From positions 62,001 through 126,000 of the forward strand of contig NZ_FNOG01000008.1 in NCBI RefSeq assembly GCF_900106525.1: 64,000 nucleotides of DNA, in the 5' to 3' direction. The translations under genes and the position numbers were made by a program. Under the pieces are notes generated by a model that was not told the origin of the DNA, ran no database searches, and saw only the letters and a program-made list of their open reading frames with translations. The stretch comes from Lysobacter enzymogenes (lineage in GTDB: Bacteria; Pseudomonadota; Gammaproteobacteria; Xanthomonadales; Xanthomonadaceae). Shown piece after piece: positions 5,174 to 35,960 of this stretch; position 1 is the stretch's first letter; each line of letters begins with the position of its first letter.

Positions 5174-5257
5174 CGCGTTCGGTTCCAAGAATGGGGAGGC
5201 AAATGATAGGCCCTGCGGCGCGGGCGGAGTGTCGCCTGGGCGACAGCCGCGGGCTCT

Positions 5258-9368: not shown

Positions 9369-11897
9369 ATGTCGCAGCAGTCGCAGTCGCTGAAACCGGG
9401 TCGTCGCGCGCCAGCGGCGCGTTCAAGTCTGGCCGGCGCACGCCGCGCCCTGTGGCCGCCGATATCGGCGGCGCGCGCGCTGTCGCTGTGGATGCTGTTG
9501 CTGTTGGCGGCGCTGGCCGCGCCGCTGCAGGCCGAACCGCTGACCCCGCTGCGCAGCGGCGAATTGCCCGCGCTGCAAACCGCCGCGCCGCCGCTCGGGC
9601 TGGCGCAGCTGGACGGCGCCACCGTCGCCGTCGGCAGCGAAAGCGCGTGGCGCCTGGATCCCGGCGCCGCGCAATGGCGCGCGCTGCAATGGACGCCGCC
9701 GCCGCGGCTGCGCGCGATCCTCGGCGACGGCGCGCGCGCGTTCGCGCTGTCCGCCGACGGCGCGTTGGCGCGGCTTCAAGCCGACCCCGCGCGGCTGCAG
9801 GCGCTGCCGCTGCCGGCCGCGCCGGAACCGCTGCGCGACGCCGCCGCGGCGTGGTCGGCCGACACGCTCTATCTCGCCGGCCTCGGCGCCGACGGCGCGC
9901 CGCGCCTGTACCAGCGCCCGCTCGGCGACGAACGCGCGGCCTGGGCCGCGGCGCCCGCCTGGACCGCGCCGGGCGCGCCGCGTACCGCGCTGTTCCAGAC
10001 CAAATCGCTGTTCCTGGTGCTCGCCGACCCCGCCGGCGGCGCCGACCGGCTGCTGCGCTGGACGCCCGGCCAGGGCGGCTGGAGCGAGGCCAGCCGCGTG
10101 CCCGGCCAGATCGCCGGCGCCGGCCGCGCCACCGGCCAGGCCCACCTGCTGATCCCGGTGAGCGCCAGCGCGCATGCGCCGGCGCAGCTCAAGACCTTCC
10201 AGACCATCACCGGCGCCTGGGCCGAACTGCCCGGCGCGCAGGTGCCGGCCGACGCGCTCGCCACCGCGGCCTGGCCCGACGGCCTGATGTGGGCGCGCGC
10301 CGACGGCGCCCAGACCCGCTTCGCCACCGCTCAGATCCAGTCCAACAAGCTGCGCCTGCACTGGCTCGACTGGGCGGTCATCGTCGTCTACCTCGCCGGC
10401 ATGATCGGCATCGGCCTGTATTTCTATCTGCGCGAAAAACGCGGCAGCACCGACAGCTTCTTCGTCGGCGGCCGCAGCATCCCGTTCTGGGCCGCCGGCA
10501 TCAGCCTGTACGCGGCCAACACCAGTTCGATCAGCTTCATCGCGATTCCGGCCAAGGCCTTCGAAACCAACTGGCAGTACATGGCCAACAACATCATCGC
10601 CGTCGGCGGGCTGGTGTTCGTGGCGATCTGGATCGTGCCGCTGCTGCGCCGGCTCGACCTGATGTCGGTGTTCTCGTACCTGGAAACCCGCTTCCATCCG
10701 TCCATCCGCATGCTCGCCAGCGCGCTGTGCGTGTTCGTGCAGATCGGCAGCCGCATGAGCGTGATTCTGTTCCTGCCGGCGCTGGCGATCGCCACCATCA
10801 CCGGCATCAGCGTGTTCTGGAGCGTGCTGCTGATGGGCGGCTTCACCATCGTCTACACCGCGATGGGCGGGATGAAGGCGGTGATCTGGACCGACTTCGT
10901 CCAGGTCATCGTCAAGATGGGCGGCGCGATCTTCGCCATCGGCTTCATGATCTGGGGCCTGCGCGGCGGCTTCGGCCAGTTCTGGTCGACCGCGATGGCC
11001 GAAGGCAAGATGCACACCTTCGATTTCAGCTTCGACCTGACCAAGGCCACCGTGTGGGGCTTCTTGTTCCTGGTGCTGTTCGAGGTGGTGCTGACCTTCC
11101 CCAAGGACCAGGTGCTGATGCAGCGCACCTTGTCGACCAGCTCGGCCAGGGAAGCCGGCCGCTCGATCTGGGCGTTCGCGGCGATCATGATTCCCGGCGG
11201 CATCGTGTTCTACACCATCGGCACGGCGATGTTCGTGTACTACCGCGAGCATCCCGAGCGCATGAATCCGTTGCTGCCGATCGATGCGACCTTCCCGATG
11301 TTCATCGCCGCCGAACTGCCGGTGGGCGTGACCGGGCTCATCATCGCGGGCATCTTCGCCGCGGCGATGGCGACGCTGTCGGGGATCATGAACTCGGTGG
11401 CGACGCTGATCTCGGTGGACTTCTACGAGAAGCTGCACAAAGGCCACAGCGCGCAGCAGAGCGTGCGCTTCGCCGAACTCATGACCGTGGTGGTCGGTCT
11501 GGTCGGCATCGGCGCGGCGCTGCTGCTGTCGAAGTTCGACATCCATTCGCTGTTCGACGTGTCGATCGAACTGGCCGGTTTGCTCGGCGGCGGTTTCGCC
11601 GGCGCCTACACCCTGGGCATGTTCACGCGTCGCGCCAACTGGCAGGGCGTGGCGATCGGGATCGGCGCCAGCGTGGTGCTGACCTTGGGCATCTGGACGC
11701 TGCGCGCGGTGCATCCGTACTACTACCTGGCGATCTCGATCGCGCTGTGCATCGTGATCGGTTACATCGCCAGCCTGTTCTTTCCGGCGCCGACGCAGTC
11801 GCTGGATGGGTTGACGATTTATCGCGACAGGCCTTCATCCGCCCCTGCGGGGCACCTTCTCCCGCAAGCGGGAGAAGGAACAGCCAAGTCCGATTAG
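9369..11897 (+). CDS. Sodium/solute symporter with N-terminal extracytoplasmic beta-propeller
   Basis: The 842-residue product has two parts. After a basic start and a hydrophobic signal-like segment (LSLWMLLLLAALAAPLQA), residues of about 45-315 look like a kelch/NanM-type propeller, the cyclically permuted mutarotase design. From about residue 330 it is a sodium/solute symporter: a first helix LDWAVIVVYLAGMIGIGLY, then SFFVGGRSIPFWAAGISLYA, the typical SSS start, and many further membrane helices. Such fusions probably present the right sugar anomer to the transporter. Substrate is unknown; a sugar fits the neighbouring kinase and glycosidase genes. The last 20 or so residues (from about RPSSAPAG) derive from a dispersed repeat. 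Confidence 0.85.
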   Translation: MSQQSQSLKPGRRAPAARSSLAGARRALWPPISAARALSLWMLLLLAALAAPLQAEPLTPLRSGELPALQTAAPPLGLAQLDGATVAVGSESAWRLDPGAAQWRALQWTPPPRLRAILGDGARAFALSADGALARLQADPARLQALPLPAAPEPLRDAAAAWSADTLYLAGLGADGAPRLYQRPLGDERAAWAAAPAWTAPGAPRTALFQTKSLFLVLADPAGGADRLLRWTPGQGGWSEASRVPGQIAGAGRATGQAHLLIPVSASAHAPAQLKTFQTITGAWAELPGAQVPADALATAAWPDGLMWARADGAQTRFATAQIQSNKLRLHWLDWAVIVVYLAGMIGIGLYFYLREKRGSTDSFFVGGRSIPFWAAGISLYAANTSSISFIAIPAKAFETNWQYMANNIIAVGGLVFVAIWIVPLLRRLDLMSVFSYLETRFHPSIRMLASALCVFVQIGSRMSVILFLPALAIATITGISVFWSVLLMGGFTIVYTAMGGMKAVIWTDFVQVIVKMGGAIFAIGFMIWGLRGGFGQFWSTAMAEGKMHTFDFSFDLTKATVWGFLFLVLFEVVLTFPKDQVLMQRTLSTSSAREAGRSIWAFAAIMIPGGIVFYTIGTAMFVYYREHPERMNPLLPIDATFPMFIAAELPVGVTGLIIAGIFAAAMATLSGIMNSVATLISVDFYEKLHKGHSAQQSVRFAELMTVVVGLVGIGAALLLSKFDIHSLFDVSIELAGLLGGGFAGAYTLGMFTRRANWQGVAIGIGASVVLTLGIWTLRAVHPYYYLAISIALCIVIGYIASLFFPAPTQSLDGLTIYRDRPSSAPAGHLLPQAGEGTAKSD
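11836..11878. repeat. Palindromic repeat CCCCTGCGGGG...TTCTCCCGCAAGCGGGAGAA
   Basis: Two hairpins in a row: GCCCCTGCGGGGC and TTCTCCCG-CAAG-CGGGAGAA. The element lies inside the 3' end of the symporter gene and encodes its last residues. Confidence 0.7.
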
Positions 11898-23722: not shown

Positions 23723-24409
23723 TCAATTCCCGAACTTGTCCCACAGCGCCTCGAAATGCCCCGAGAAGCTGCGCACCAGATTGGCATCGTCGGTCACCAC
23801 CAGATTCTCTTCGTTGCTGGTGGTCGCGCTGCGGGTCCAGTTGAAACTGCCGTTGGCCAGCAACCGCCCGTCGAACAGGGCGAACTTGTGGTGCATGTGA
23901 AACGGGCTGTCGTCGATGCGCAGCGGCACGCCCGACTCCAGCAGGCGCGGCACGTCGCTGCCGTCGTCGTAGCGTTTGTCGTTGTCGCTGATCACCCGCA
24001 CCGCGATGCCGCGCTGGTGGCAGGCCAGAATCTCCTCGGCCAGGCGGTCGTCGGAAATCGTATAGACGCAAACGTCCATGCTGCGCTTGGCCGAGCGGCA
24101 CAGCTCGCGCAGCTTGCGCAGGCAGGCATCGCCGGGGGCGAAGAACGCGCTGGACACCCTCGCCGGCGCTTCGGCGACCGCGTCCAACGTCTTGACCACC
24201 TGCTCCAGCCAACGCAGCGAATCCAGCGTGCGCGGCGGCTGCGCCAGCATCAGCTCGCGGGCCATGTCGAAGGCGCGGTTGCGCAGGTAGCGCACGCGAT
24301 CGGCCGGCAGCCGCGCGCCGAGTTCGCGCAGTTCGAACTTCTCCTCGACGTCCAGGGCCAGGTCGGCGACGCTGTCGCGCAGGGTACGGTCGAGTTCGGC
24401 GAAATCCAT
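23723..24409 (-). CDS. Phospholipase D-like (HKD) protein, probable nuclease
   Basis: The 228-residue protein has one HKD motif: H173, K175 and D180 in HMHHKFALFDG, followed by GSFN at 187-190. Single-HKD proteins of this size act as dimers and include the Nuc endonuclease and mitochondrial PLD6. The first 100 residues are helical and charged, without a recognised domain. No signal peptide is seen, which argues for a cytoplasmic nuclease or lipid-acting enzyme. It is the last gene of the six-gene operon, 7 bp after the giant ATPase, so the two proteins very likely work together. Confidence 0.82.
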   Translation of the reverse strand: MDFAELDRTLRDSVADLALDVEEKFELRELGARLPADRVRYLRNRAFDMARELMLAQPPRTLDSLRWLEQVVKTLDAVAEAPARVSSAFFAPGDACLRKLRELCRSAKRSMDVCVYTISDDRLAEEILACHQRGIAVRVISDNDKRYDDGSDVPRLLESGVPLRIDDSPFHMHHKFALFDGRLLANGSFNWTRSATTSNEENLVVTDDANLVRSFSGHFEALWDKFGN

Positions 24410-24416
24410 CGGAACC

Positions 24417-27400
24417 TCAGCGCTGGGTGCGGCCGTTGAGCCGGTCGGCGAATTCGTTGAGCGCGCGCTGCAGCTCGCGCTGCTGTTCGGTCATTTCGGC
24501 GCGGGTCGGCGCGTCCTGGACCTCGCGTTCGCCGAGCTGCTGGAACAGCTCCACCATCGCCGCGTTGACCCGGCTCTGGCGCTCGTCGTTGTCCTGCAGG
24601 CGCTCGACCAGCGGCACGAACGCCTGCTGCAGCTGCGGGCCGAGCCCGCTCAGCGCCGCGCTCAGGGCCGCGCCGGCATCCGCCGGCGGCGCCGCATCGG
24701 GCTCGGCCTGCGTCGCGGCGATGCGCTCCAGCGCCGCCAGCAGCTGCGGCCACGGCGCCGGGTCGGCCGGCTTGGCCTGCACCGCCTTGGCCTGTACCGC
24801 GCCGGCGCGGTCGGCGGCCGCGTCCAGCGCGCGCACGCTCTCGACCAGATCGTTGAGCTGTGCCACCACGCGCCCGCCGACATCGGCCTCGCCCGCGCCC
24901 ATCGCCTTGTTGCGCAGGAAATCGCGCTTGATCTGGGCCCAGCGCGCCGCCTGTTCCTCGCTGTGCACGCCGCGCAGCTCGCCGAGCTTGAGCAAGTTCT
25001 CCTCGGCGCCGGAGGTCAGCAACTGCGCCTCGCCGAGGTAGTGATCGCCGATCAACTGCTGCAGCTCGGCCGCGTTCATCACCGGCGAAATCTTCTCCGC
25101 CAGCTTGTTCATGTTGCGATAGCTGCCTTGCAGCTTGAACGGCGGCTCGGTGCGGTAGGTCTCGGCCTGGGCGGCGCTGGCGATGTACTGCTGGTTGACC
25201 CGGTAGACCACGTCGCGCACCTGCACCAGCCGCTCCAGGGTGGCGACGATTTCGTTGATCTCCGCGCCGCTGTAGGCGTGGCGCAGCTCGTTGGCTGAAA
25301 ACGCCTTGCCCTGGGCCTTGTCGATCAGCTTGTACAGATCGCTCATCTCGCGCGTGGCCAGCGGCGCCAGCACCGGATTGGAGGTCAGGCTGTTCTCGAT
25401 GTAGCTCAGCAGGAAGGCGTGTTCCATGCCGCCGAGCACATCGCCGAGGTTGTAGATGTCGGCGCGGTTGGCGAGCATGTCCGGAATCTTGAACACCTCG
25501 CCGGACTCGGTGTACGGATTGCCGGCCATGACCACGCAGAACTTCTTGCCGCGCATGTCGTAGGTGCGGGTGCGGCCCTTCCACACGCCTTCGATGCGGC
25601 GGGTGCCGTCGCACAGCGAGATGAACTTCTGCAGGAACTCGGGATGGGTGTGCTGGATGTCGTCGACGTACAGCATCACGTTGTTGCCCATCTCCAGCGC
25701 CAGATTGAGCTTCTCCAGCTCCTGGCGCGAGGTCGCGTCCGGCGCCTGGGCCGGGTCGAGCGAGCGCACCTCGTGGCCGAGCGCGGGGCCGTTGATCTTC
25801 ATGAAGATCAGGCCCAGCCGGTGCGCCACGTATTCCATCAGCGTGGTTTTGCCGTAGCCCGGCGGCGAAATCATCATCAGCAGGCCCATCAGGTCCGAGC
25901 GCTTGCTCTCGCCGACGGTGCCCATCTGCTTGGCCAGGTTGTCGCCGATCACGCCCAGGTAGACGTCGTTGATCAGCTTGTTGCGCACGAACGAACTCAA
26001 CGGCCGCGGCTTGAACTCCTCCAGGCGCAGCGCCGCGCGCTCGCGCGCGACGATCTGCTGGCGCAGCGCCTGATAGGTCTGGAAGCCGGGCACGAACTGT
26101 TCGCGATGGTGGCGCAGCCGCGCCGACCAGTCGTCCACGGCCAGGCGCATGCGGCCCTCGCGGATGCGCGGGTGCTCGCCGAGCAGGCCTTGCAGGTCGG
26201 CGCCCAGCTCGGTCTCGCTGGTGGTCTTGGCGAAGTCGTCGTCGAGCAGCAGCAGCGCCGCGGCCTCCGCCGCGTAGGCCGCTTGCGCGGCCAGTTCCGG
26301 CGTGCGCGCCAGCGCGTCGATCCAGTTCGTCGCCAGCGCCCAGCGCGCGGCCGGACGCTCGCGCAGCGATTCCAGCGCGGCGGCGAAACCGTCCCACATC
26401 CGCGCCGCTTCGAGCTTCTCGCGCAAAGCCTTGAGCAGTTGCGCGGCGTAGCGGCTGAACACGAACCGCGGCTGCGGCGCCGACAGTTCCAGCACCAGGT
26501 ATTCGGCTGCGCGCGGGGTCAGCGCCGGGTCCACCGGCATCGCCTGCGCCTGCGCCCACGCCGCCATCGCCGCGGCGACTTCGCCGCGCAACGCGGCCAG
26601 GCCGTCGGCGCTGGCGAACAGGCGCTGGATGTCGGCCGCGGTGCGCGCGCGTTCCGGCCACAGCGCCGGCTCACCCTGCCCGCCCTGCAGCGACCAGAAG
26701 TACGCCGCCCACGCGCGCGCGGCCGGCTCGAAGCTGAGGCTGCCGGCGCTGTCGCGCAGCGGCAGCAACACCTGCAGGATCAGCGCGGCGTCGTGGTCGT
26801 GGATGCCCTTCTCATAGCCTTCGCGATAGCGCGGCGCGGCGAAGTCGCGGATCGTGCGCGCCAGCGCGTCCGGCTGCGCCAGCTGTTCGCGCAGCAGGTC
26901 CATGCTGAGGTTTTCGCGCCCGGCCTGCGCCGCTTCGATCGCCAGCCCGGCCAGATACTCGCCGCGGTACAGCTGCGGCGATTCGGAATCCATCGACACG
27001 CCCCAGTAGTCGCGCGCCGCGTCCAGGCCGGCATCATTGATCGGCTCGAAGAAATCGGTGCCGGTCAGATGCAGGTTGAGCGCGTCGCCGCGCGGCATCA
27101 GGGTCAGGTCGAGTTCCTGAGTGTTGACGCTGAAACGATGACGCGGGCCGAGCTTGATGACCCCGCCGCCGTCCTCGAACAGTTCGCTGCGGTCGCGCAG
27201 CGCGCGCACCGCCTGGTCGCGCGCGCCCTTGAGCCGCGCCTCGACATCGTCGGCCTTGACGTTGTCCTTGAGCGCGCGCAGGCGCTCGGCCAACTCGCGC
27301 AGCTTGAGGATCAGCGCGTCGCCGGCGAAGAACGCGTTGAGCTCGTCGCTGTTGGCGAAGCGCGCGGTGCGCCGGCCCAGGCCTTCGAGGATGCGCGCGG

Positions 27401-29792
27401 CCGCGTCCATCACCGCCTGCGCCTTGCGCTGGCGCTCGTCCAGCAAGGTCTGCTTGTGCGCTTCGAAGGTTTCCAGCAACTCCTCGCGCTTGGCCAGGAT
27501 GTCGCCGAGGAAGGCCTCGTGTTCGCCGAACTGGCTTTCCAGTTCTTCCAGTTGCACCAGCAGGCGCGAGAGCTGTTCGTCGGCCTTTTCCGGATCCTGC
27601 GCCAGCGCCAGCGCGCTGGCGATGCTCTGGCCGAACAGGGTGAACTGGGCGCCGAACTGGGCCACCGATTCGGCCGAGCCCAATTGCTTGCGGCGCTGGT
27701 CCGCGCGCGCCTTGGCCTGGTTGAGCTTGGCGTAGATTTCCGAGATCGCCTCGACCACGCGCGTGCGTTGGGTCGCGTCGTCGACTTTCAGCGTCGCCAT
27801 CAGCCCCGATAGCATGTCCAGATCGCCCGACATCGCCTGCAGCTGGGTCAGCGGTTCGGTCAGTTGCGTCACCGTGGTCGCGGCCTGGGCCTGGGCATCG
27901 AGCTGCGCGAGCTTTTCGCCCAGCGGCGCCAGCGCCTTGTCGCCGGCCAGGAACGCGCCGGTGGCCGCGCCGATGCGCTCGTGCGCGGCGATCAGCGCCT
28001 GCTCCATCTCGTCGATCTTCGCCACATCGATGTAGCGGTACTCGCGGATGGTCAGCAGGTGCCCGCGCTGCGCGGTCAGGCCGTTGAGCGCATCGACGAA
28101 GGGCTGCACTTGTTCCCAGTTGTCCGGCTGCAGACTGTCGAACAAGGCCTTCTGCTTGCTCTGCGCCTCGCGCATGGCGCGCTCGGACTGGCTGCGGATG
28201 CCTTCGACTTTCTCGTACTCGTCCAGCACCGACTCGGCGGTGGCGGCGATCTCGCGCAGCAGCGGCGCCACATCGCCGCAATTGGGGTCGCTGAGCCAAT
28301 GGTGGGCGTCGAACAGGCGCCGGGTGTTCTGCGCGAGCAAGCCGTAGCGCTGCGCCGAGACCTCGGTGGCCTCGATCTCGCGGCTCAGGCTGATCAGCTC
28401 GGACATGCCGCGCACCAGCTCGGCGTTGCCGATCTTGCCCATGAAGGTGTTGCCGGCCGGTTGCTTTGCTGCGTATTCCTCGCTGGCGTAGGGCGTCTGC
28501 CACACCTGCATCGGGTGCACGCGGGTCGGCTCGTCGCTTTCGGTGGCGAAGATCACCATGCGCCCGTCTTCCAGGCGCGCGTAACCGTGGCCGAAGATCG
28601 GCGTCTGCAGGCGCCGCTCGATCAGGTTGTAGGTGAACATCGCCGTGCGGCCCTGCTCGGGCTCGTAGAACAGGTACATCACGTCTTCGCCGTTGGGCGA
28701 GCGGATGTTGCGCTTGTAGCGCATACCGTCCATCGACTGATCGAAGCGCTTGTGCTCGCCGTTCTGCAGGTAATAGCCGCCGGGGAAGATGATGCCGTGG
28801 TCTTCCGGCAGCTGGATGCAGGCCAGGCCGATCTCGTCCAGCCGCACCACCTTGCGGGTGAGCGTGTTGAACACCAGGTAGCGCCACTGCTCTTCGCGAT
28901 ACGGCAGGATCTTGAGCAGGATCAGGCTGCCGACCCGGGCGTAGTCGACCTGGGCGTCGTCGAGCGACTGGGTCTTGTCCTGGACCGGCTCGCGGTAGAT
29001 GCCCTGACCGTCCTCGGTGTTGTTCTCGACCTTGATCGTGAGATCGCCGCCGACGGTTTCGACGAACACGCTGTCGAGAATATTGAGATGCGGATGGCGG
29101 CCGTTGACCACCATGTCGCGGCCGGCGCGGATCCACTCGAAGTCGTACGGCGCCGGCAGCGCGATGTCGCGCTCGCCGCGGTTGTCGATATAGCGCACCT
29201 CACCGTCGGGCGAGACCGACCAGCGGAACACGCGCAGGTCGGTGATGCGCTCGCCGATCTGGAACGCGGCCAGCAGCTTGCCGTCGCGCACGATCAGCTG
29301 GATCAGCCGGGTGTGCTTGTAGTACGCGTACAGCTCGCGGAAATCGTGGGCGAAGCTGTCGATGCCGAGGAAACTGCCCTTGAGCTCGACCGGGGTGACA
29401 TCAAAGCCCTCCGGCCCCTGCACCAGCTTGTACAGCGAGAACACGTCGGCGACCGCGGTCTCTTTCTTGAGCCCCATGAACACGTTGTAGCCGAACACCA
29501 GGAACTCGCCGACCTGGACGATGTCGCGGGCGACGCAGTTGTTCTCGGTGCGGATGCGGAAGCGCCCGACCACCTCCATCTGGCTGCTGCCGAATTCGGC
29601 CAGCCGCTGCTTGTTCAAGCCGTCGGCCAACGCGCGCAACTTCTGGCCTTGTTCGGCCAGGCGCTTGCTCAGCACCTCGTAGGCGCCGCCCTGGGCGACG
29701 GCCTGATCGACTGCGCTGCTGTCGCCGGCCGTTGCCGAGCCAGCAGTGGAAGCGCCCGCGGCCGCTGCCGCGGCGGGCTTGGTATCCGCCAT
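24417..29792 (-). CDS. Giant AAA+ ATPase with N-terminal propeller-like and coiled-coil regions
   Basis: The product has 1791 residues. After an Ala-rich start, residues of about 75-420 are beta-rich (VVGRFRIRTENNCVARDIVQ, later FIFGHGY-type strands). Residues of about 430-900 are long charged helices, probably coiled coil. An AAA+ module lies near residue 1300-1450: Walker A ISPPGYGKTT (about 1304-1312), Walker B VMLYVDDIQH (about 1370), then FCVVMAGNPYTESGEVF as in MoxR-like proteins. Similar proteins are labelled DNA repair ATPase in databases, to my memory without strong evidence. No membrane segment is seen. A Shine-Dalgarno TAGGA sits 7 nt before the ATG. It follows the flotillin gene by 102 bp and precedes the PLD gene. 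Confidence 0.78.
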   Translation of the reverse strand: MADTKPAAAAAAGASTAGSATAGDSSAVDQAVAQGGAYEVLSKRLAEQGQKLRALADGLNKQRLAEFGSSQMEVVGRFRIRTENNCVARDIVQVGEFLVFGYNVFMGLKKETAVADVFSLYKLVQGPEGFDVTPVELKGSFLGIDSFAHDFRELYAYYKHTRLIQLIVRDGKLLAAFQIGERITDLRVFRWSVSPDGEVRYIDNRGERDIALPAPYDFEWIRAGRDMVVNGRHPHLNILDSVFVETVGGDLTIKVENNTEDGQGIYREPVQDKTQSLDDAQVDYARVGSLILLKILPYREEQWRYLVFNTLTRKVVRLDEIGLACIQLPEDHGIIFPGGYYLQNGEHKRFDQSMDGMRYKRNIRSPNGEDVMYLFYEPEQGRTAMFTYNLIERRLQTPIFGHGYARLEDGRMVIFATESDEPTRVHPMQVWQTPYASEEYAAKQPAGNTFMGKIGNAELVRGMSELISLSREIEATEVSAQRYGLLAQNTRRLFDAHHWLSDPNCGDVAPLLREIAATAESVLDEYEKVEGIRSQSERAMREAQSKQKALFDSLQPDNWEQVQPFVDALNGLTAQRGHLLTIREYRYIDVAKIDEMEQALIAAHERIGAATGAFLAGDKALAPLGEKLAQLDAQAQAATTVTQLTEPLTQLQAMSGDLDMLSGLMATLKVDDATQRTRVVEAISEIYAKLNQAKARADQRRKQLGSAESVAQFGAQFTLFGQSIASALALAQDPEKADEQLSRLLVQLEELESQFGEHEAFLGDILAKREELLETFEAHKQTLLDERQRKAQAVMDAAARILEGLGRRTARFANSDELNAFFAGDALILKLRELAERLRALKDNVKADDVEARLKGARDQAVRALRDRSELFEDGGGVIKLGPRHRFSVNTQELDLTLMPRGDALNLHLTGTDFFEPINDAGLDAARDYWGVSMDSESPQLYRGEYLAGLAIEAAQAGRENLSMDLLREQLAQPDALARTIRDFAAPRYREGYEKGIHDHDAALILQVLLPLRDSAGSLSFEPAARAWAAYFWSLQGGQGEPALWPERARTAADIQRLFASADGLAALRGEVAAAMAAWAQAQAMPVDPALTPRAAEYLVLELSAPQPRFVFSRYAAQLLKALREKLEAARMWDGFAAALESLRERPAARWALATNWIDALARTPELAAQAAYAAEAAALLLLDDDFAKTTSETELGADLQGLLGEHPRIREGRMRLAVDDWSARLRHHREQFVPGFQTYQALRQQIVARERAALRLEEFKPRPLSSFVRNKLINDVYLGVIGDNLAKQMGTVGESKRSDLMGLLMMISPPGYGKTTLMEYVAHRLGLIFMKINGPALGHEVRSLDPAQAPDATSRQELEKLNLALEMGNNVMLYVDDIQHTHPEFLQKFISLCDGTRRIEGVWKGRTRTYDMRGKKFCVVMAGNPYTESGEVFKIPDMLANRADIYNLGDVLGGMEHAFLLSYIENSLTSNPVLAPLATREMSDLYKLIDKAQGKAFSANELRHAYSGAEINEIVATLERLVQVRDVVYRVNQQYIASAAQAETYRTEPPFKLQGSYRNMNKLAEKISPVMNAAELQQLIGDHYLGEAQLLTSGAEENLLKLGELRGVHSEEQAARWAQIKRDFLRNKAMGAGEADVGGRVVAQLNDLVESVRALDAAADRAGAVQAKAVQAKPADPAPWPQLLAALERIAATQAEPDAAPPADAGAALSAALSGLGPQLQQAFVPLVERLQDNDERQSRVNAAMVELFQQLGEREVQDAPTRAEMTEQQRELQRALNEFADRLNGRTQR

Positions 29793-29812
29793 GTTTCGTC
29801 CTACCGATAGTA

Positions 29813-29874
29813 CCGTCGGCGCGCACGCGCGCCGACGGCGTCACATCGATGCGCCGCCGTCAGCGGCGGCGCAT
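29813..29874 (-). promoter_or_regulatory. Two perfect GC-rich hairpins in the flotillin-ATPase gap
   Basis: CCGTCGGCGCGC and GCGCGCCGACGG (29813-29824, 29827-29838) pair over 12 bp with a 2-nt loop. ATGCGCCGCCG and CGGCGGCGCAT (29849-29859, 29864-29874) pair over 11 bp with loop TCAG. Neither is followed by a T-tract. They could lower read-through or protect the upstream mRNA, so that the flotillin is made in excess over the ATPase. Confidence 0.6.
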
Positions 29875-29894
29875 TCCCTGGCTGAGCGCCGCGC

Positions 29895-31943
29895 TCAGGA
29901 ATCCAGCGCGGCGGCGCCGTCGGCCGCCTTGTCGCCGGCGGGCTTGGTCTCGGCCTTGGCCAGGATGCGCTGCAGCACGTCCTGCACGATCGGGCTCTTG
30001 CCGGCCACGCCCTCGATCGCCTTGCCGACCGACAGCGCCTTGGCGAAGGAATCGAAGAACGCGCCTTCGCCGCCGACGATGTCGATGTTGGCCTTGCTGA
30101 GCGCGGCCGACAGCACCTCGGACTGCTCCTTGGCGATTTCCTTGTTGGCCTCGATCCCGGCGATCGCCTGCTCGAAGCTCTTTTCCAGCTGCATGCGGAA
30201 CTCTTCGTGCGCGCGCGCCTGGTCGCTGAGCGAATCCAGCGCGCCGAACTTCTGCGCCAGGCCCTCGGCCTCGGACTTGAACTTCTGCAGCAGCACCTCG
30301 GCTTCCGACAGGCCCAGGGCCTGGGTCGCCTTGGCCTTGGCCGCACCCAACTGCTCCTCGCCGCGCGCCTGCGCGAACAGGTTCTCTTCCAGCACCTTGG
30401 CGTCGGACAGGCCCTGCTTCTGCTTGGCCTCGGCCTGCGCCTCGATCACGCGCGCCTGCGCCAGACCCTTTTCCTGCTCGCCCTTGGCTTCCGCGCCCAT
30501 GGTTTCGGCGATCACGCGCGCCTTGGCCAGGCCTTCCTTCTCGGCCGCGGCCGCGGTGACTTCGCGCACCCGCGCATCGGCCAGGCCCGGCGCGGCGCGC
30601 TCGGCCTCGATGCCTTCGGCCAGCTTCTTCTTGGCCTCGGCGGTCTTGCCGGCGGCCTCGAACTCGGCCTGAGCCAGCGTGGTCATCTCCACCGCCTTGT
30701 GCTTGGACGCGGTCTCGTCGGCCTCGGCCTGCTTGACCTGGCGCACCAGCTCTTCCTCGGCCGACGCCTGCGCGGCGAGCACGGCGACCTGCTTGGCGCG
30801 GTCGGCCTCGGACACCTGGCGCACTTCCTTGATCCGCTCTTCTTCCTGCGCCACGGTCTTCTCGACCGCAATGCGCTCGCGGATGACGTTGGCGATTTCC
30901 TTGCGCTGCTCTTCCAGCGCGCGTTCCTTCTCGATCCGGTTCAGCTCGACCTCGCGCTCGCGCGAGACCACTTCCAGATCCTTGGCGCGGGTGACCTTCT
31001 CGACCTCGATCACCACCGCGCGCTGGCGGTTCTGCTGCGCCACTTCGACTTCGCGCTGGCGGTTCTGCTCGCGGATGTCGATCTGTTCCTGCGCGGCGAT
31101 GCGCGCCTGCTCGGCCTTCAGGCGCTCTTCTTCCTGGACCTTGGCGGTCTCGGCCTGCTCGCGCGCCTGGATGGTCTGGATCTCGCGCTTCTGCCGCGCC
31201 TCGGCGTCGGCCTGCTGGCGTTCCAGCGCCAGCATCGCCTCGCGGGTCTCGACGTTCTTCTTGGTGATCGCCAGCTGCTCGTTGCGCTCGAGCTCGTTGG
31301 TGATGACGTTCTGCGCCGCGGTCAGCTCGGTGATCTTGCGGATGCCTTCGGCGTCGAGGATGTTGGTCGGATCCAGCGAAGCCTTCGGCGTCTGCTCCAG
31401 GTAATCGATCGCCACGTCTTCGAGCACGTAGCCGTTGAGGTCGTTGCCGATCACCTCGATGATGCGGTCGCGGAACTCCTGGCGGTTCTCGAACAGCTTG
31501 ACGAACTCGATCTGCTTGCCGACGGTCTTGAGCGCCTCGGAGAACTTGGCGTTGAACAGCTCGTTGACCGCGGTGCGGTCGGACGCGCGGTCCACGCCGA
31601 TGGCCTTGGCGACCTTGAGCACGTCCTGCTGGGTCTCGTTGACGCGCAGGTAGAAGGCGACGGTGATGTCGGCGCGCATGTTGTCGCGGCAGATCAACCC
31701 GTCCTTGGCCCGACGGTCCACTTCCAGGGTGATCAAGGAGATCTTCATGAACTCCTTCTTGTAGATCACCGGATAGACCAGCGCACCGGTGAAGTGCACC
31801 TTCGGCGTGGCGGACATGTCGTTGACGATCAAGGCCGTGCCCTGCGGCACCTTGATGTAGAAGGCCTTGAACATCAACAGCATGACGAAAATCATCAGTA
31901 CGACGACGACGATGGCGGCGCCGACGATCATCAAGTTGCCCAT
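29895..31943 (-). CDS. Flotillin family SPFH-domain membrane protein (YqiK-like)
   Basis: The 682-residue protein has one N-terminal membrane helix (residues of about 3-28) and an SPFH domain (YIKVPQGTALIVNDMSATPK, then ISLITLEVDRRAKDGLICRD; about 30-210). A very long Glu/Ala/Arg-rich coiled coil follows (about 220-600), with a C-terminal oligomerisation region. The start at MGNLMIVG is chosen because GGGAG lies 6 nt before it. Flotillins form membrane-domain scaffolds; E. coli YqiK is the nearest well-known relative and also has an NfeD-like partner (YqiJ). The NfeD-like gene lies immediately upstream here, 73 bp away. Confidence 0.88.
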   Translation of the reverse strand: MGNLMIVGAAIVVVVLMIFVMLLMFKAFYIKVPQGTALIVNDMSATPKVHFTGALVYPVIYKKEFMKISLITLEVDRRAKDGLICRDNMRADITVAFYLRVNETQQDVLKVAKAIGVDRASDRTAVNELFNAKFSEALKTVGKQIEFVKLFENRQEFRDRIIEVIGNDLNGYVLEDVAIDYLEQTPKASLDPTNILDAEGIRKITELTAAQNVITNELERNEQLAITKKNVETREAMLALERQQADAEARQKREIQTIQAREQAETAKVQEEERLKAEQARIAAQEQIDIREQNRQREVEVAQQNRQRAVVIEVEKVTRAKDLEVVSREREVELNRIEKERALEEQRKEIANVIRERIAVEKTVAQEEERIKEVRQVSEADRAKQVAVLAAQASAEEELVRQVKQAEADETASKHKAVEMTTLAQAEFEAAGKTAEAKKKLAEGIEAERAAPGLADARVREVTAAAAEKEGLAKARVIAETMGAEAKGEQEKGLAQARVIEAQAEAKQKQGLSDAKVLEENLFAQARGEEQLGAAKAKATQALGLSEAEVLLQKFKSEAEGLAQKFGALDSLSDQARAHEEFRMQLEKSFEQAIAGIEANKEIAKEQSEVLSAALSKANIDIVGGEGAFFDSFAKALSVGKAIEGVAGKSPIVQDVLQRILAKAETKPAGDKAADGAAALDS

Positions 31944-32005
31944 TTGCATCTCCCTATGACACGACTGCATGTCGCGGCCGACAAGGCGGCGACGGTTCGT
32001 TGGCG

Positions 32006-32025
32006 GGCGGCTGCGTTCAGCCGCC
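32006..32025 (-). promoter_or_regulatory. Hairpin over the stop codon of the NfeD-like gene
   Basis: GGCGGCTG and CAGCCGCC pair perfectly with loop CGTT. The TGA stop of the NfeD-like gene lies at the loop/stem junction. No T-tract follows. Confidence 0.5.
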
Positions 32026-32700
32026 GCGGAATTCGTCCTCGCTGACCGCGCGGTAGGCGTTCTGGTCCTCGAGGTATTCGATCAGCACGACCCGGTCGCC
32101 GCGCTTGAAGCGCTGCGGGTCTTCGTCGCGGATCTGCAGGATCAGGCCCGCGCCGCCGTCTTCGACGCTGGCGGTGCCGGTGCCGCGGTTGACCGGGCTG
32201 CGGATGGTCGCGACCTGGCCGAGGATCGGCCGCGCCGGCCCGGGCTGCATCTTGCGCAACAGCTTGCGCAGCGGCCGCAGCGCCAGCGCGGCGACCGGCA
32301 GCGACAGGCAGAAGTTGACGAAGATGATCAAAGCGCCCGCGGCGATGCGCAGCGGCGTGCCCGGCACCAGGCTCAGCAGGTAGATGTCGGCGTAGTAGGT
32401 CAGGATCCAGCCGACCAGCACGATCACGCTGACCACCACGGTGATCGGGATGCCGCCCAGGCCCAGGCGCATCAGCGGATCGAAGATGCCGTGCTGCGGA
32501 TGATGCGCGCCGTCGACCAGGGTGTGGTCGCCCAGGCCGTGCGCGCCGTGGCCGTGGCCGTCGCCGCCGATCCATCCATCGATCATTTCGCCGCCGGCCA
32601 GCCCCACCGCCGACAGCAGCCAATAGCCCACGACCACGCCGAGCAGGACGGTGTAGAACGCCGTCGGCAACGTCAGGATCGTGCTGAAGAAATCGCCCAT
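32017..32700 (-). CDS. NfeD/YqiJ-like membrane protein with C-terminal OB-fold
   Basis: The 227-residue product has an N-terminal membrane helix (TAFYTVLLGVVVGYWLLSAV), a His/Gly-rich loop (GGDGHGHGAHGLGDH), and further helices (ITVVVSVIVLVGWILTYYA and AAGALIIFVNFCLSLPVAAL). It ends in a small beta-domain (GQVATIRSPVNRG...KRGDRVVLIEYL) with the look of an NfeD OB-fold. The ATG at 32700 has GGGAGGGA just upstream, so an in-frame codon 63 bp earlier is not used. NfeD-like proteins pair with flotillins, which explains its place before the flotillin gene. The His-rich loop might bind metal, but this is only suggested by composition. Confidence 0.82.
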   Translation of the reverse strand: MGDFFSTILTLPTAFYTVLLGVVVGYWLLSAVGLAGGEMIDGWIGGDGHGHGAHGLGDHTLVDGAHHPQHGIFDPLMRLGLGGIPITVVVSVIVLVGWILTYYADIYLLSLVPGTPLRIAAGALIIFVNFCLSLPVAALALRPLRKLLRKMQPGPARPILGQVATIRSPVNRGTGTASVEDGGAGLILQIRDEDPQRFKRGDRVVLIEYLEDQNAYRAVSEDEFRGG

Positions 32701-32790
32701 TTCGTTTCCCTCCCCCGCTTGCCGCATCGCCCGCGGCGCCTCCATGAAACCGGCCGACCCCATGTCGACCGGCCGTATCGATCCGGGCGC

Positions 32791-33495
32791 TCAGCCCGGC
32801 AGCTTCTGCCGCAACCGCGCCAGCACCGCTTCGGCGCCGGCCTCGTCGGCGATGATGCCGGCGTCGCGCAGTTTGCGTTCCAACGCATCGCCGTTGTCGT
32901 GGCGCGCCAGTTCCGCCGCCGCCTCCATGCGCGCGCCGCGTTCGGCCTGCTTGAGCTTGATCCGGGCCAGCGAATCCACCGCGGTCTGCAGGCGGTTGTG
33001 CGGCCCGGCGTAGCGCTGCGCGACCGCGGCCTGCGCGCGCTGCATGCTTTCGGTGGCCTTGACCGTGTCGAGCTGCTGCTTGAGCCGGCGGATGTTGCCT
33101 TCGGCCATCGCCACCGCGCGGCGCAGTTCGGCGACGCTGGCGGCGAGCTGGCCCAGATGCGCTTCGTCGTCGCCGCGCGCGGTTTCCAGCGCGGCGATCT
33201 TGTCGGCGACCTCGCGCGCCAGCGCGTCCTCGCCCGACTCCAGCGCCTTGATCGCATAGCCTTCGTACTCGGCGATCTTGTCCGCGCGCTGCGCCAACGC
33301 GCGCTCGGCCAGGGTGTGGCGCGCGATCAGATGCGCCAGCGATTCGCGCGACTGGCGCAGGTCGATGTCGCAGTCGCGGATTTCCTGGTCGAGGATGCGC
33401 AGCGCCTGGCTATCGGCCCAGGCCTCGCCGAGTTCCTGCGCGCCGGCGCGCACCGAAGTCAGCAGCTTGCTCCAGATGCCGTCGTGCTTGGCCAT
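32791..33495 (-). CDS. PspA/IM30 family protein (YjfJ-like)
   Basis: The 234-residue protein is almost entirely helical and charged, with the PspA/Vipp1 pattern: WSKLLTSVRAGAQELGEAW at the N-terminus, then IRDCDIDLRQSRESLAHLIA and long heptad runs. PspA-type proteins are ESCRT-III relatives that coat and repair damaged inner membrane. The ATG at 33495 overlaps the stop of the DUF2170 gene by one base (TGATG), so translation is coupled. The pairing with a DUF2170 gene is the same as yjfI-yjfJ of E. coli, which marks this as YjfJ-type rather than the classical PspA of the psp operon. Confidence 0.85.
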   Translation of the reverse strand: MAKHDGIWSKLLTSVRAGAQELGEAWADSQALRILDQEIRDCDIDLRQSRESLAHLIARHTLAERALAQRADKIAEYEGYAIKALESGEDALAREVADKIAALETARGDDEAHLGQLAASVAELRRAVAMAEGNIRRLKQQLDTVKATESMQRAQAAVAQRYAGPHNRLQTAVDSLARIKLKQAERGARMEAAAELARHDNGDALERKLRDAGIIADEAGAEAVLARLRQKLPG

Positions 33496-34118
33496 CACGC
33501 CGCCTCCAGCAGTTGCGTCTCGTAGGCCTCGGTGGCCTTGATGACGTTGTCGGCCAGGGTTTCGATCTCATAAAGCACGTTCGACAGCGACGACGACGCG
33601 CTGAGCGCGCCGAACATCATGTACACCGCTTCGCCGTCGGCGAGGGTCTCGATGCCGATGGTCGACAGCGGGAACACCTTGTGGGTGCGCAGCACTTCTT
33701 CGTTGAACGCGTTGGCGTCGCGCACGTGCGCGACCGGCCACAGCAGCGCCTCGACCACGATCTGCTCGCCGACCACGGCCACGAACAGCGGCAGGTCGCC
33801 ATAGTCGGCCATGACCAGGTGCAGGCTCGGCTCGGCGCCGTCGATCAGTTCGATCTGCGAGTCGCCGTAGACGAATTCCTCGAGCTGGCACAGCGCGTCG
33901 TACAGCCCCGTCGCGGTCCAGACCTTGCCGTCGTTCATGTCCCTCTCCACCTGTCCGCGCCCGGCCGCCGCACCGCGCGGCTGCCGCATCCGCTTCTCCA
34001 CCGCCAGCAGTTCGTCGGCGAACTCGGGCAGCACCCACAGCTCTTTCTTGACCAGGCCTTTCTCGCGCAGTCGTTCGCGGTGGCGGCGCTGGTAGTAGGC
34101 GGAGGATCGGCGTTCCAT
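33495..34118 (-). CDS. DUF2170 family protein (YjfI-like)
   Basis: The 207-residue product begins with a basic helix (ERRSSAYYQRRHRERLREKG). The DUF2170 body follows (GKVWTATGLYDALCQLEEFV, then SLHLVMADYGDLPLFVAVVG and VEALLWPVAHVRDANAFNEE). It resembles YjfI of E. coli, a protein of unknown function next to the PspA paralogue YjfJ. An ATG at 34118 is chosen; a TTG 9 bp upstream is also possible. It is the first gene of the operon. The inverted repeat at 34137-34169 lies 18 bp before its ATG, so expression is probably controlled there. Confidence 0.8.
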   Translation of the reverse strand: MERRSSAYYQRRHRERLREKGLVKKELWVLPEFADELLAVEKRMRQPRGAAAGRGQVERDMNDGKVWTATGLYDALCQLEEFVYGDSQIELIDGAEPSLHLVMADYGDLPLFVAVVGEQIVVEALLWPVAHVRDANAFNEEVLRTHKVFPLSTIGIETLADGEAVYMMFGALSASSSLSNVLYEIETLADNVIKATEAYETQLLEAA

Positions 34119-34269: not shown

Positions 34270-34297
34270 CGCGGTCGCGGTTTGCGCCGCTCCTATA
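34270..34297. repeat. REP-like family 1, single degenerate unit
   Basis: CGCGGTCGCGGTTTGCGCCG followed by CTCCTATAG: a lone reverse unit with two changes from the usual form. It lies between the operator and the small acidic gene. Confidence 0.7.
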
Positions 34298-34330
34298 GGG
34301 GCTGCGGGCAGGAGCGGCGCGGCCGGGAAG

Positions 34331-34576
34331 TCAGGCGGGGATGCCGTGCTGCTGGCGCGCTTCGGCGATGCGGCGCTGGACTTCGGGATCCAGCGAGCCG
34401 AATTCGGCCTGCTTGAAGATGTTGCCGAGCACGCGCTTCTCGTCCTCGTCGATGGTCTGATCGCGCAGGGCGAGGTCGAGCAGGTTCTGCAGCTCGGCGA
34501 CGTCGAGGGTGCCGTCGTTGGTGAAGACCTGGATCGAGGCGAGCGCGATCACGAGGTGGCTCTTGGGCTGGGCCAT
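34331..34576 (-). CDS. Small acidic protein of unknown function
   Basis: The product has 81 residues: SHLVIALASIQVFTNDGTLD, then DLALRDQTIDEDEKRVLGNI. A CGGAG sequence sits 8-9 nt before the ATG. The acidic helix-loop-helix (TNDGTLDVAEL and RDQTIDEDEKR) is spaced like a degenerate pair of EF-hands or a TerB-like helical protein, but no calcium-binding loop is complete. It has no partner in an operon: the PspA operon lies to the left and oleA to the right, both on the same strand. I do not recognise its function. Coding status is supported by the good ribosome site and the acidic, non-shadow composition. Confidence 0.6.
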   Translation of the reverse strand: MAQPKSHLVIALASIQVFTNDGTLDVAELQNLLDLALRDQTIDEDEKRVLGNIFKQAEFGSLDPEVQRRIAEARQQHGIPA

Positions 34577-34725
34577 GGTTGCAACTCCGTTGCGGATGAT
34601 GAAGTCCCGGTGCGGCGGCCATCGCGGCCGGCGCGTGATGGGATCGACTATAGCAAGGTCGGTGCGGGCGTCGTGGTGCACAGCGGGGCAGCGGCGCGGG
34701 AATGGGTTCGCCGTAATCGTGTTGT

Positions 34726-34808
34726 CGCGGTCGCGGCTTGCGCCGCTCCTACAGGGGCTTCGGTCGGCTTCGTATCCGACTGTAGGAGCGGCGCGAGCCG
34801 CGACCGCG
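34726..34808. repeat. REP-like family 1, inverted pair
   Basis: Reverse unit 34726-34753 and forward unit 34781-34808. The loop between them (GGGGCTTCGG...CGTATCCGAC) is nearly the same as in the pair at 23620-23701, so whole pairs, not just single units, appear to spread. Confidence 0.9.
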
Positions 34809-34937: not shown

Positions 34938-35960
34938 TCACCACACCACTTCGGCCATCGAGCAGTTCAGGCCCGAGCCGATGCCCAGCAGCGCGACCCG
35001 GTTGCCCTTCTTCAGCCGGCCCATCTCGCGCAGCTTGCTCAGCACGATCGGCACCGAGGCCGGGCCGATGTTGCCGTGTTCGCCGAAGATGGTCATGACC
35101 TTGTTCGGGTCGATGCCGAAGGCCTTGAGGAAGGCCTGGGTGTGCGCGCGGCTGACCTGGTGGATGACGAATTCGTCGAGCTCTTCCACCGCCCAGCCCA
35201 GCGCGGCGCGCGCGGCGGTGAAGGTCTTCTGGCCGAGCTTGAGGCCTTCGATCATCAGCATGCGGCCGTCGGCGACCATGCGGTCGTGGTGCAGGTCGCC
35301 CACGCACAGGTGGTTCCACTCGGTGGCCGAACGGGTCACGCCGCCGCGGTAGCGCGGCGCGCCCGGCGCCAGTTCGGCGCGGGCCAGCACCATCGCGGCG
35401 GCGCCCGAACCCAGAGTCAGCGTCGCCATTTCGTCGCGCAGCTGCGATTCGGTGACGTCGGCGCGCGAGAGACGGTCGAGGGTCTTCTCGTAGGCCTTGT
35501 TCGCGGTTTCGCCGTCGACGACCAGGGCGTAGTCGATCTCGCCGCGCTCGATCATGCGGCCGGCGATGTCCATGCCGTTTATGAAGGCCAGACAGGCGTT
35601 GGCGACGTCGAAGTTCTGGCAGTTCTCGCCCAGGCGCAGGTTGCCGGCGACGATCGAAGCGGTCGACGGCTCCAGGTAGTCGCGGCTGACCGAGGTGTTG
35701 ACCAGCAGGCCGATGCGGTCGGCGTCGACGCCGGCATCGGCCAGCGCCTTGACTCCGGCCAGGGTGGCCGCTTCCGAAGGCTTGACCTCGCCGTCCCACA
35801 GACGGCGCTCGCGTACGCCGGCGATGTTCTGCAGCACGTCCACCTTGATGCCGAGGCGATCGAGCGTCGGCTTGAGCCGGGCGTTGATTTCCTCAGTGGT
35901 CAGCTTTCGCGGCGCGTCGACATGGGCGAGGCCGGCGATGGCTACGTGTTGGAACAGCAT
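34938..35960 (-). CDS. oleA: OleA, thiolase-superfamily enzyme for head-to-head acyl condensation
   Basis: The 340-residue protein is a thiolase-fold condensing enzyme. The nucleophile Cys123 lies in FDVANACLAFINGMD, Glu97 in SVSRDYLEPSTAS, and the conserved His and Asn in FVIHQVSRAHT and GEHGNIGPASVP. These sites coincide with those known from Xanthomonas campestris OleA, and the similarity runs the full length. OleA condenses two fatty acyl-CoAs to a 2-alkyl-3-ketoacid, the first step to long-chain olefins. The product would go to OleD, OleC and OleB, whose genes are at 4187-7953. Its sequence excludes FabH. It has its own terminator, so it forms a separate transcription unit. Confidence 0.95.
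   Translation of the reverse strand: MLFQHVAIAGLAHVDAPRKLTTEEINARLKPTLDRLGIKVDVLQNIAGVRERRLWDGEVKPSEAATLAGVKALADAGVDADRIGLLVNTSVSRDYLEPSTASIVAGNLRLGENCQNFDVANACLAFINGMDIAGRMIERGEIDYALVVDGETANKAYEKTLDRLSRADVTESQLRDEMATLTLGSGAAAMVLARAELAPGAPRYRGGVTRSATEWNHLCVGDLHHDRMVADGRMLMIEGLKLGQKTFTAARAALGWAVEELDEFVIHQVSRAHTQAFLKAFGIDPNKVMTIFGEHGNIGPASVPIVLSKLREMGRLKKGNRVALLGIGSGLNCSMAEVVW

Follow-up and report, generated by a model that had tools for sequence, protein, structure and literature searches.

An operon joining PspA, flotillin and a giant AAA+ ATPase in Lysobacter enzymogenes: a steady flotillin–ATPase core with optional modules

Introduction

Two described systems come closest to the six-gene operon reported here, which lies in a 64,000-nucleotide stretch of the Lysobacter enzymogenes contig NZ_FNOG01000008.1 (positions 62,001 to 126,000; this whole stretch is called the window, and coordinates count from its first letter). 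The first is a group of gene neighbourhoods described by Ravi et al. in 2024, in which a CesT/Tir-PspA pair is joined to a flotillin of the transmembrane (TM)-band-7 type, YqiJ and a novel AAA+ ATPase with a coiled coil and a beta-propeller, and to which a phospholipase D (HKD) hydrolase is added in some Proteobacteria (PMC11237479). The gene set of the operon is therefore not new. The second is the bac operon of Pseudomonas aeruginosa, which comprises six genes that were linked by reverse-transcription PCR; bacA and bacB mutants were reported to have biofilm and rhamnolipid phenotypes, and the PspA-like protein accumulates after osmotic shock (PMC10948618, PMC2587700). Loss of BacA raised the other five bac products 6.1-13.5 fold (PMC10948618), and a contact between BacA and BacB was predicted with a probability of 0.981 (PMC13092808). 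In the same organism PA3728 is labelled as an ATPase in a table (PMC8190622). Elsewhere, an SPFH-NfeD cage was found to protrude into the cytoplasm (as cited in PMC13086221), and an SPFH protein recruits PspA in Bacillus subtilis (PMC8581546).

We consider it probable that the L. enzymogenes operon is a member of the CesT/Tir-PspA-flotillin-AAA+ group and the counterpart of the bac operon, acting in envelope stress and membrane quality control and not in phage defence. This reading builds on the linkage of an NfeD-like protein, flotillin and the ATPase in all 69 loci that could be scored, the invariance of the ATP site, the optional nature of the other modules, the existence of genomes without a PspA match, the kinship of the HKD protein with MitoPLD, the flanking olefin-biosynthesis (ole) genes and the publications on the bac operon. 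While the operon itself is already published, what is new here is comparative, namely the core linkage, the optional modules, the apparently PspA-free genomes, the putative MitoPLD-like HKD enzyme and the presence of the operon across the genus with one scarred loss.

Results

Layout of the operon

A preliminary description of the window had reported a minus-strand run of six genes with gaps ranging from a 1-bp overlap to 102 bp. This was borne out, as all six open reading frames (ORFs) were intact and in the reported order:

33495..34118, minus strand: DUF2170/YjfI-type (CesT/Tir-like) protein, 207 aa, bacA counterpart (PF09938, 170.8 bits)
32791..33495, minus strand: PspA/IM30 (bacterial ESCRT-III superfamily), 234 aa, bacB counterpart (PF04012, 161.9 bits)
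32017..32763 (alternative start 32700), minus strand: NfeD/YqiJ-like membrane protein, bacC counterpart (by hydrophobic regions and homologues)
29895..31970 (alternative start 31949), minus strand: flotillin-like SPFH protein, bacD counterpart (by a hydrophobic segment and homologues)
24417..29792, minus strand: ATPase of 1791 aa (DUF3686, DUF7902 and AAA+)
23723..24409, minus strand: single-HKD phospholipase-D-superfamily protein, 228 aa (PF13091, PLDc_2, 99.2 bits)

The arrangement is not a matter of chance, since the gene order recurs in other species. The start of pspA overlaps the end of the DUF2170 gene by the said 1 bp, the 102-bp gap separates the flotillin and ATPase genes, and 7 bp lie between the ATPase and HKD genes. 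The first gene product exceeded the NCBI cut-off for the BacA equivalog (NF050185, 344.5 bits versus 300), and we therefore regard the operon as the counterpart of the bac operon; its sole PDB match was 8q8o, a DUF2170 family protein (2.5e-47). The flotillin-like protein starts with a hydrophobic region (1-36) followed by a long repetitive part that is probably a coiled coil, while the NfeD-like protein has hydrophobic regions at approximately 6-39, 77-114 and 110-146. Neither of these two had a Pfam family match of its own, and PDB profile searches gave none at 0.01 for flotillin and none that was convincing at 1 for the NfeD-like protein. The flotillin label instead comes from homologues, one of which (in locus L024) matches Band_7 at 9.3e-11 while other records are annotated as SPFH or flotillin; that of the NfeD/YqiJ-like protein comes from its hydrophobic regions, from one relative annotated as DUF1449 and from a below-cut-off NfeD match in another. 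A second DUF2170-PspA pair is located elsewhere in the same genome (contig 16, 324274-325361).

Steady and optional partners of the ATPase

To compare neighbourhoods, we used the best 80 of at least 583 confirmed ATPase relatives from species genomes, found with a query alignment of 12 ATPases; being top-ranked, these loci are skewed toward close kin, the nearest ATPase among them being that of Lysobacter sp. ISL-50 (88% identity over the tree-alignment part). Homologues of the neighbours were assigned by transitive BLAST, given that an earlier profile approach had drifted (151 PLD matches, 4 final seeds). Linkage was counted gene by gene and only in loci with sufficient flank, the others being set aside, and the genome collection omits contigs <3 kb. 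On this basis a flotillin gene and an NfeD-like gene each precede the ATPase gene in 69/69 loci (11/80 set aside). PspA and DUF2170 were each found in 44/65 operons (15 set aside), the HKD gene in 26/67 loci (13 set aside; not found in 41/67) and a small acidic protein in 13/60 (20 set aside). The steady core is thus the NfeD-like protein, flotillin and the ATPase, with the DUF2170-PspA pair and the HKD gene as optional additions. The preliminary description had expected the ATPase and HKD genes to be linked to those of PspA and flotillin across genomes, and had named the lack of such linkage as a result that would speak against its idea; the expectation held throughout for the ATPase and flotillin, but only in the above fraction for the HKD gene.

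The core linkage recurs on Deinococcus and Hymenobacter plasmids, flotillin and the ATPase are also found together on a Streptomyces plasmid, and in two Marinobacter loci the DUF2170-PspA pair adjoins the operon on the opposite strand. On plasmid pQBR103 (L024, 1004-14208) a single run contains the YjfI-PspA pair, a rhomboid, polyamine-type genes (DUF2491, DUF350, DUF1190 and glutathionylspermidine synthase), the NfeD-like protein, flotillin and the ATPase, and thereby merges two of the groups described by Ravi et al. (PMC11237479). A tree of the ATPase with 76 rows (the window and 75/80 loci, 5 having been dropped for length; built by a quick search, with 18/73 inner branches unsupported) requires a minimum of 11 changes for the HKD gene and 10 for the DUF2170-PspA pair. 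The raw table gave 21 loci with pair and HKD gene, 20 with the pair only, 5 with the HKD gene only and 14 with neither, a mild positive lean with kinship ignored. The idea that pair and HKD gene evolved independently was dropped, the test on independent pairs having no power (8 pairs, ~3 of them informative, median p 0.625).

Further proteins accompany the core in some relatives. A rhomboid-family protein (PF01694) was present in 21/99 loci, mostly directly after the ATPase (for example L034, 15205-15750), and the GxSG motif and a later His, which we take to be the catalytic motif of rhomboids, were kept in 20/21 of them (L077 being the exception). Among the 67 loci with downstream flank, 13 carried the HKD gene and a rhomboid, 13 the HKD gene only, 4 a rhomboid only and 37 neither. 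In addition, 14 loci contained a zinc-ribbon-like protein (PF13453, slightly below cut-off), and 13 a protein of 115 residues that had no Pfam match.

PspA in genomes with a pair-less operon

We then looked at 24 genomes whose operon lacks the DUF2170-PspA pair; their completeness is unstated, and three of them (those of L053, L076 and L106) were picked with <8 kb upstream of the operon. A DUF2170 match was present in 6 of these genomes and absent from 18, including genome-wide absence in the three with the short flank, while a PspA (PF04012) match was present in 15 and absent from 9. The nine genomes without PspA are those of L038, L041, L042, L047, L050, L082, L093, L096 and L107, and span Xanthomonas, Luteimonas, three Stenotrophomonas, Wohlfahrtiimonas, two Aquabacterium and one Burkholderiales bin; at L093, L096 and L107 the HKD gene is present. 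Taken at the unstated completeness of these genomes, the counts suggest that the steady partners of the ATPase are flotillin and the NfeD-like protein, and not PspA.

The giant ATPase

The 1791-residue protein comprises DUF3686 (52-498; PF12458, 689.6 bits), DUF7902 (619-703; PF25472, 95.8 bits) and a C-terminal AAA+ module (~1270-1610). The latter matched PF07728 (AAA_5) with 24.9 bits against a cut-off of 22, along nearly the full profile, and PF00004 (AAA) with 24.7 bits against a cut-off of 21.2, along half of it. Two alignments of picked relatives were made, one of the AAA+ module (46/51) and one of the DUF3686 part (44/47). In the former, 47/47 sequences (window included) showed no variation in the P-loop, the Walker B DD, the GNPYTE Asn and a number of arginines, with motif names as we presume them to apply. 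Given the invariant ATP-site residues, the giant protein should be active as an ATPase. In a PDB profile search with the AAA+ module, most of the 60/99 matches listed covered short P-loop segments of CDC48/p97, NVL/Rix7, RuvB and others. The protein has no hydrophobic segment and no match to a Pfam protease family. In one genome (G026, contig 42, 208579-209916) the ATPase match carries one in-frame TGA.

The HKD protein

Eight PDB matches were obtained for the HKD protein, led by the mitochondrial cardiolipin hydrolases 9lkx (1.3e-30, residues 91-227) and 4ggj (3.4e-27), with Nuc (1byr, 4.2e-13) and NucT (6ehi, 1.8e-7) further down. His171, His173, Lys175 and Asp180 as well as the G, S and N of GSxN were invariant in 36/36 rows (window included). 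Like MitoPLD/PLD6, the protein has one HKD catalytic domain that bears HxKx4D and GSxN, and the top match to 9lkx is free of gaps. MitoPLD/PLD6 has an N-terminal membrane anchor, whereas the HKD protein of the window has no hydrophobic segment and hence no such anchor, and its N-terminal 90 residues show conserved positions of their own. For MitoPLD/Zucchini both phospholipid and nucleic acid have been claimed as substrate. As judged from these comparisons, phospholipid is favoured no less than nucleic acid as the substrate of the HKD protein.

Genomic setting and loss in one genome

The ATPase, close homologues of the HKD protein and DUF2170 were each found in 19/20 genomes of the genus (own genome included). 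The exception, G011, had no ATPase or DUF2170 match, and only a 42-residue HKD remnant and two distant HKD proteins. Compared with L016, a 19.9-kb stretch of G011 lacks ~9.7 kb, from the 3' end of the ATPase gene to before the DUF2170 gene, with an additional gap inside the HKD gene, while the flanking genes are kept. The deletion scar (L116; G011 contig 10, ~9528-9770) lies inside the ole cluster and holds only the HKD remnant and a match to the end of the ATPase; the remaining operon proteins were not found in the G011 stretch. The operon was thus lost in G011, most simply as a block, and is dispensable.

Beyond the operon, the following neighbours were identified, for three of which we presume the names OleA, OleB and OleD to apply:

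34938..35960, minus strand: OleA-type 3-oxoacyl-ACP synthase III, outside the operon (NF006720, 454.8 bits, cut-off 285)
34331..34576, minus strand: acidic small protein of 81 aa, uncertain member of the operon (homologues in 22/99 loci)
7051-7953: OleB-like protein beside OleC, 88% to an alpha/beta hydrolase of L016
5380..7041, minus strand: OleC, olefin beta-lactone synthetase (NF045786, 1015.5 bits, cut-off 900; match 5398-7020)
4187-5188: OleD-like protein beside OleC, conserved next to OleC in relatives

The ole genes are thus split round the operon, with the OleA-type gene upstream and the OleB/C/D-type genes downstream. In the window OleB is separated from the HKD gene by ~16 kb containing other genes, while several Lysobacter-like loci have the operon placed directly between the ole parts. 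We compared 12 such loci, a 13th (L118) being a second stretch of the L021 genome. The OleA-type synthase was upstream in 9/12 (not in L021, L023 and L069) and OleB/C/D-type genes were downstream in 8/12 (not in L019, L020, L023 and L035, some of these with ~5 kb of flank); OleC exceeded the NCBI cut-off also in L016.

The 81-aa acidic protein had no Pfam match at 0.01 and no convincing PDB profile match at 1, and its relatives gave TerB and EF-hand matches that were all sub-threshold. In 8 Pseudomonas/Stutzerimonas loci its relatives are found between flotillin and the ATPase. However, the protein is 7 kb away in L016, L017 and L021, three Lysobacter-like loci, and is retained in the operon-less G011; its membership of the operon is therefore doubtful in this genus, and the ORF may belong with the adjoining ole gene. 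REP-like repeats of the type (C/G)GTAGGAGCGGCG..., seen by eye, flank this ORF (~34720-34790 and 34270-34310).

Alternative explanations

If the ATPase were a dedicated disassembly motor for PspA, as Vps4 is for ESCRT-III, with flotillin merely a membrane anchor, PspA would be expected in every genome with the ATPase. The presence of PspA in 44/65 operons fits this idea, and Ravi et al. suggested that PspA, together with AAA+ ATPases, remodels membranes in an ATP-dependent manner (PMC11237479). In addition, among 398 genomes sampled across the phylum, the ATPase was present in 8 (own genome included) and DUF2170 in 50, with DUF2170 somewhere in 8/8 genomes with the ATPase versus 42/390 without (Fisher 3.7e-8, kinship ignored). 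We had considered this association as proof of an obligate tie to PspA, and dropped it when only 6/24 genomes of the second sample had DUF2170. Indeed, the 9/24 pair-less-operon genomes without a PspA match argue against the ATPase being no more than a Vps4 dedicated to PspA; the 18 without DUF2170 and the constant company of flotillin and the NfeD-like gene point the same way, and we regard this explanation as unlikely. Far less probable still is a role as a DNA-repair ATPase, which the name of PF12458 and the annotated products suggest and to which the weak RuvB-like matches could be related. The likeness to RuvB comprises ~45 residues round the P-loop and lies below cut-off, the constant neighbours are membrane proteins, and among the papers listed under that name or under DUF3686, none contained the term DUF3686 and none, judged by its title and the opening of its abstract, dealt with the family.

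The preliminary description had also raised the idea of a defence system. In such a system PspA and flotillin would sense a breach of the membrane, and the ATPase would then let the HKD nuclease cut phage DNA or kill the cell. HKD proteins do occur in defence systems, and PADLOC, for which no cut-offs are supplied, gave weak matches to DrmC, MkoC, MkoB and DpdK among others (HKD-DrmC 1.1e-7, ATPase-LmuB 1e-4, PspA-JetC 0.0046). Moreover, the ATPase is patchy in the phylum (the 8/398 genomes above), it was matched in 12/72,556 records of a plasmid collection, and PA3728-PA3732 transcripts rise upon phage infection of P. aeruginosa (PMC12041424). However, the PADLOC comparison that the preliminary description had called for gave nothing beyond such weak matches, with none at 0.001 for eight proteins neighbouring the operon in the window or for two accessory proteins from relatives, and the curated NCBIfam defence models stayed far below cut-off (DrmC 32.6 of 133 bits, DpdK 21.2 of 100). 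The ATPase was matched in 0/50,697 phage records, and six of the 12 plasmid-collection records, being longer than 1.6 Mb, might represent chromosomes or chromids. The presence of the ATPase in 19/20 genomes of the genus also speaks against defence, as does that of paFlo3, the P. aeruginosa flotillin, which is one of nine SPFH genes reported in 99.5-100% of 1117 P. aeruginosa genomes, even though it is patchy between Pseudomonas species (PMC13086221). Finally, the HKD gene was not found in 41/67 relatives, its product resembles cardiolipin hydrolase more than Nuc or NucT, and the phage-raised transcripts fit a membrane-stress regulon as well as defence. The evidence thus leans against an anti-phage role, which is unsupported and which we judge quite improbable.

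Discussion

A role in envelope stress and membrane quality control agrees with the membrane connection of the linked set that the preliminary description had put forward, and this part of it stood, the bac operon being co-transcribed and its PspA-like protein increasing after osmotic shock. The linear route that it had drawn from PspA and flotillin through the ATPase to a nuclease fared less well, with the HKD gene not found in 41/67 loci and PspA unmatched in 9/24 genomes. We propose instead that flotillin and its NfeD-like partner would assemble on the cytoplasmic side of the inner membrane into an oligomeric scaffold that is probably a cage, and onto which the giant ATPase might dock via its long N-terminal part. 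The C-terminal AAA+ module could then remodel or extract proteins in this patch, somewhat like HflK/C with FtsH. PspA, restrained by the CesT-like BacA, would serve as a stress-induced membrane-sealing module, and the HKD enzyme, which lacks a membrane segment, may have the phospholipid (or nucleic acid) of this site as its substrate. A bolder version of this scheme, which we put forward tentatively as possible though not likely, is a distinct, PspA-independent SPFH-AAA+ machine made of the NfeD-like protein, flotillin and the DUF3686 ATPase, in which a flotillin cage in the cytoplasm is joined to the giant motor and receives, depending on the species, exchangeable effectors: PspA/ESCRT-III, the MitoPLD-like enzyme or the rhomboid protease.

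If true, protein unfolding, lipid cleavage and resealing of the bilayer could all take place in one membrane patch. The largest protein of the operon is conserved from Proteobacteria to Actinomycetota, and the literature found assigns no activity to it. The comparison points to flotillin, more than to PspA, as its steady partner and suggests that lipid be taken seriously as a possible substrate of the HKD enzyme. The function of bacterial flotillins and the nature of their driving force thereby become directly testable questions, for which the MitoPLD-like enzyme and the core that is independent of PspA would be the worthwhile targets.

Several observations weigh against our interpretation. 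The occurrence of DUF2170 in all 8 genomes with the ATPase in the phylum sample links the ATPase more closely to the PspA pair than our interpretation does, although only 6/24 genomes of the other sample had DUF2170, and the ATPase-flotillin docking of our scheme is hypothetical. The beta-propeller that Ravi et al. gave for the ATPase was not recovered, as hhalign found no internal repeat and the PDB profile search with the DUF3686 part gave nothing convincing at 1. At the Streptomyces plasmid locus (L026, outside the 80) flotillin is present with no NfeD-like match in 8 kb upstream. A sigma-54 pattern had 16 matches in the window versus 29.3 expected, the nearest being at 34652-34667 with 2 mismatches, before the small ORF. 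No publication aimed at the ATPase or the HKD protein was found in the literature searched. In P. aeruginosa, deletion of paFlo3 was reported to reduce biofilm by ~20% and to leave pyocyanin and swimming unchanged (PMC13086221), and a pa3728 insertion mutant grew well and was used as a control for an unrelated gene (PMC12599236); in view of these mild phenotypes, the role would be conditional at most.

Set against the known systems, the operon has the same gene set as the group of Ravi et al., including DUF2170 followed by pspA, a protein of the three-TM YqiJ/YuaF type beside a TM-band-7-flotillin (both labels via homologues), the AAA+ ATPase and the optional HKD protein. In the main text of that work, figures and supplements aside, the words rhomboid and TerB do not appear, and its section 19 is without linkage counts (PMC11237479). 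It was also suggested there that operons without PspA use a PspA encoded elsewhere, while 9/24 genomes here, of unstated completeness, had no PspA match. The pairing of an SPFH scaffold with an AAA+ machine resembles HflK/C-FtsH (PMC13086221), with the difference that FtsH is a membrane-anchored protease, whereas the ATPase of the window has neither a hydrophobic segment nor a protease family match. The four-gene pspA-ydjGHI operon of B. subtilis is without a giant ATPase or HKD enzyme, and shares with our operon the coupling of PspA to an SPFH protein (PMC8581546). A sigma-54 promoter was proposed for the bac operon and none was significant in the window; in addition, the bac-type Pseudomonas/Stutzerimonas loci differ by the small acidic protein between flotillin and the ATPase (8 loci), several of them with a rhomboid after the ATPase. 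In both operons a DUF2170 protein (BacA equivalog), PspA, a membrane protein and an SPFH protein come in this order and are followed by more genes, bacE and bacF of bacA-F being candidate counterparts of the ATPase and HKD genes of the window (PMC2587700, PMC10948618).

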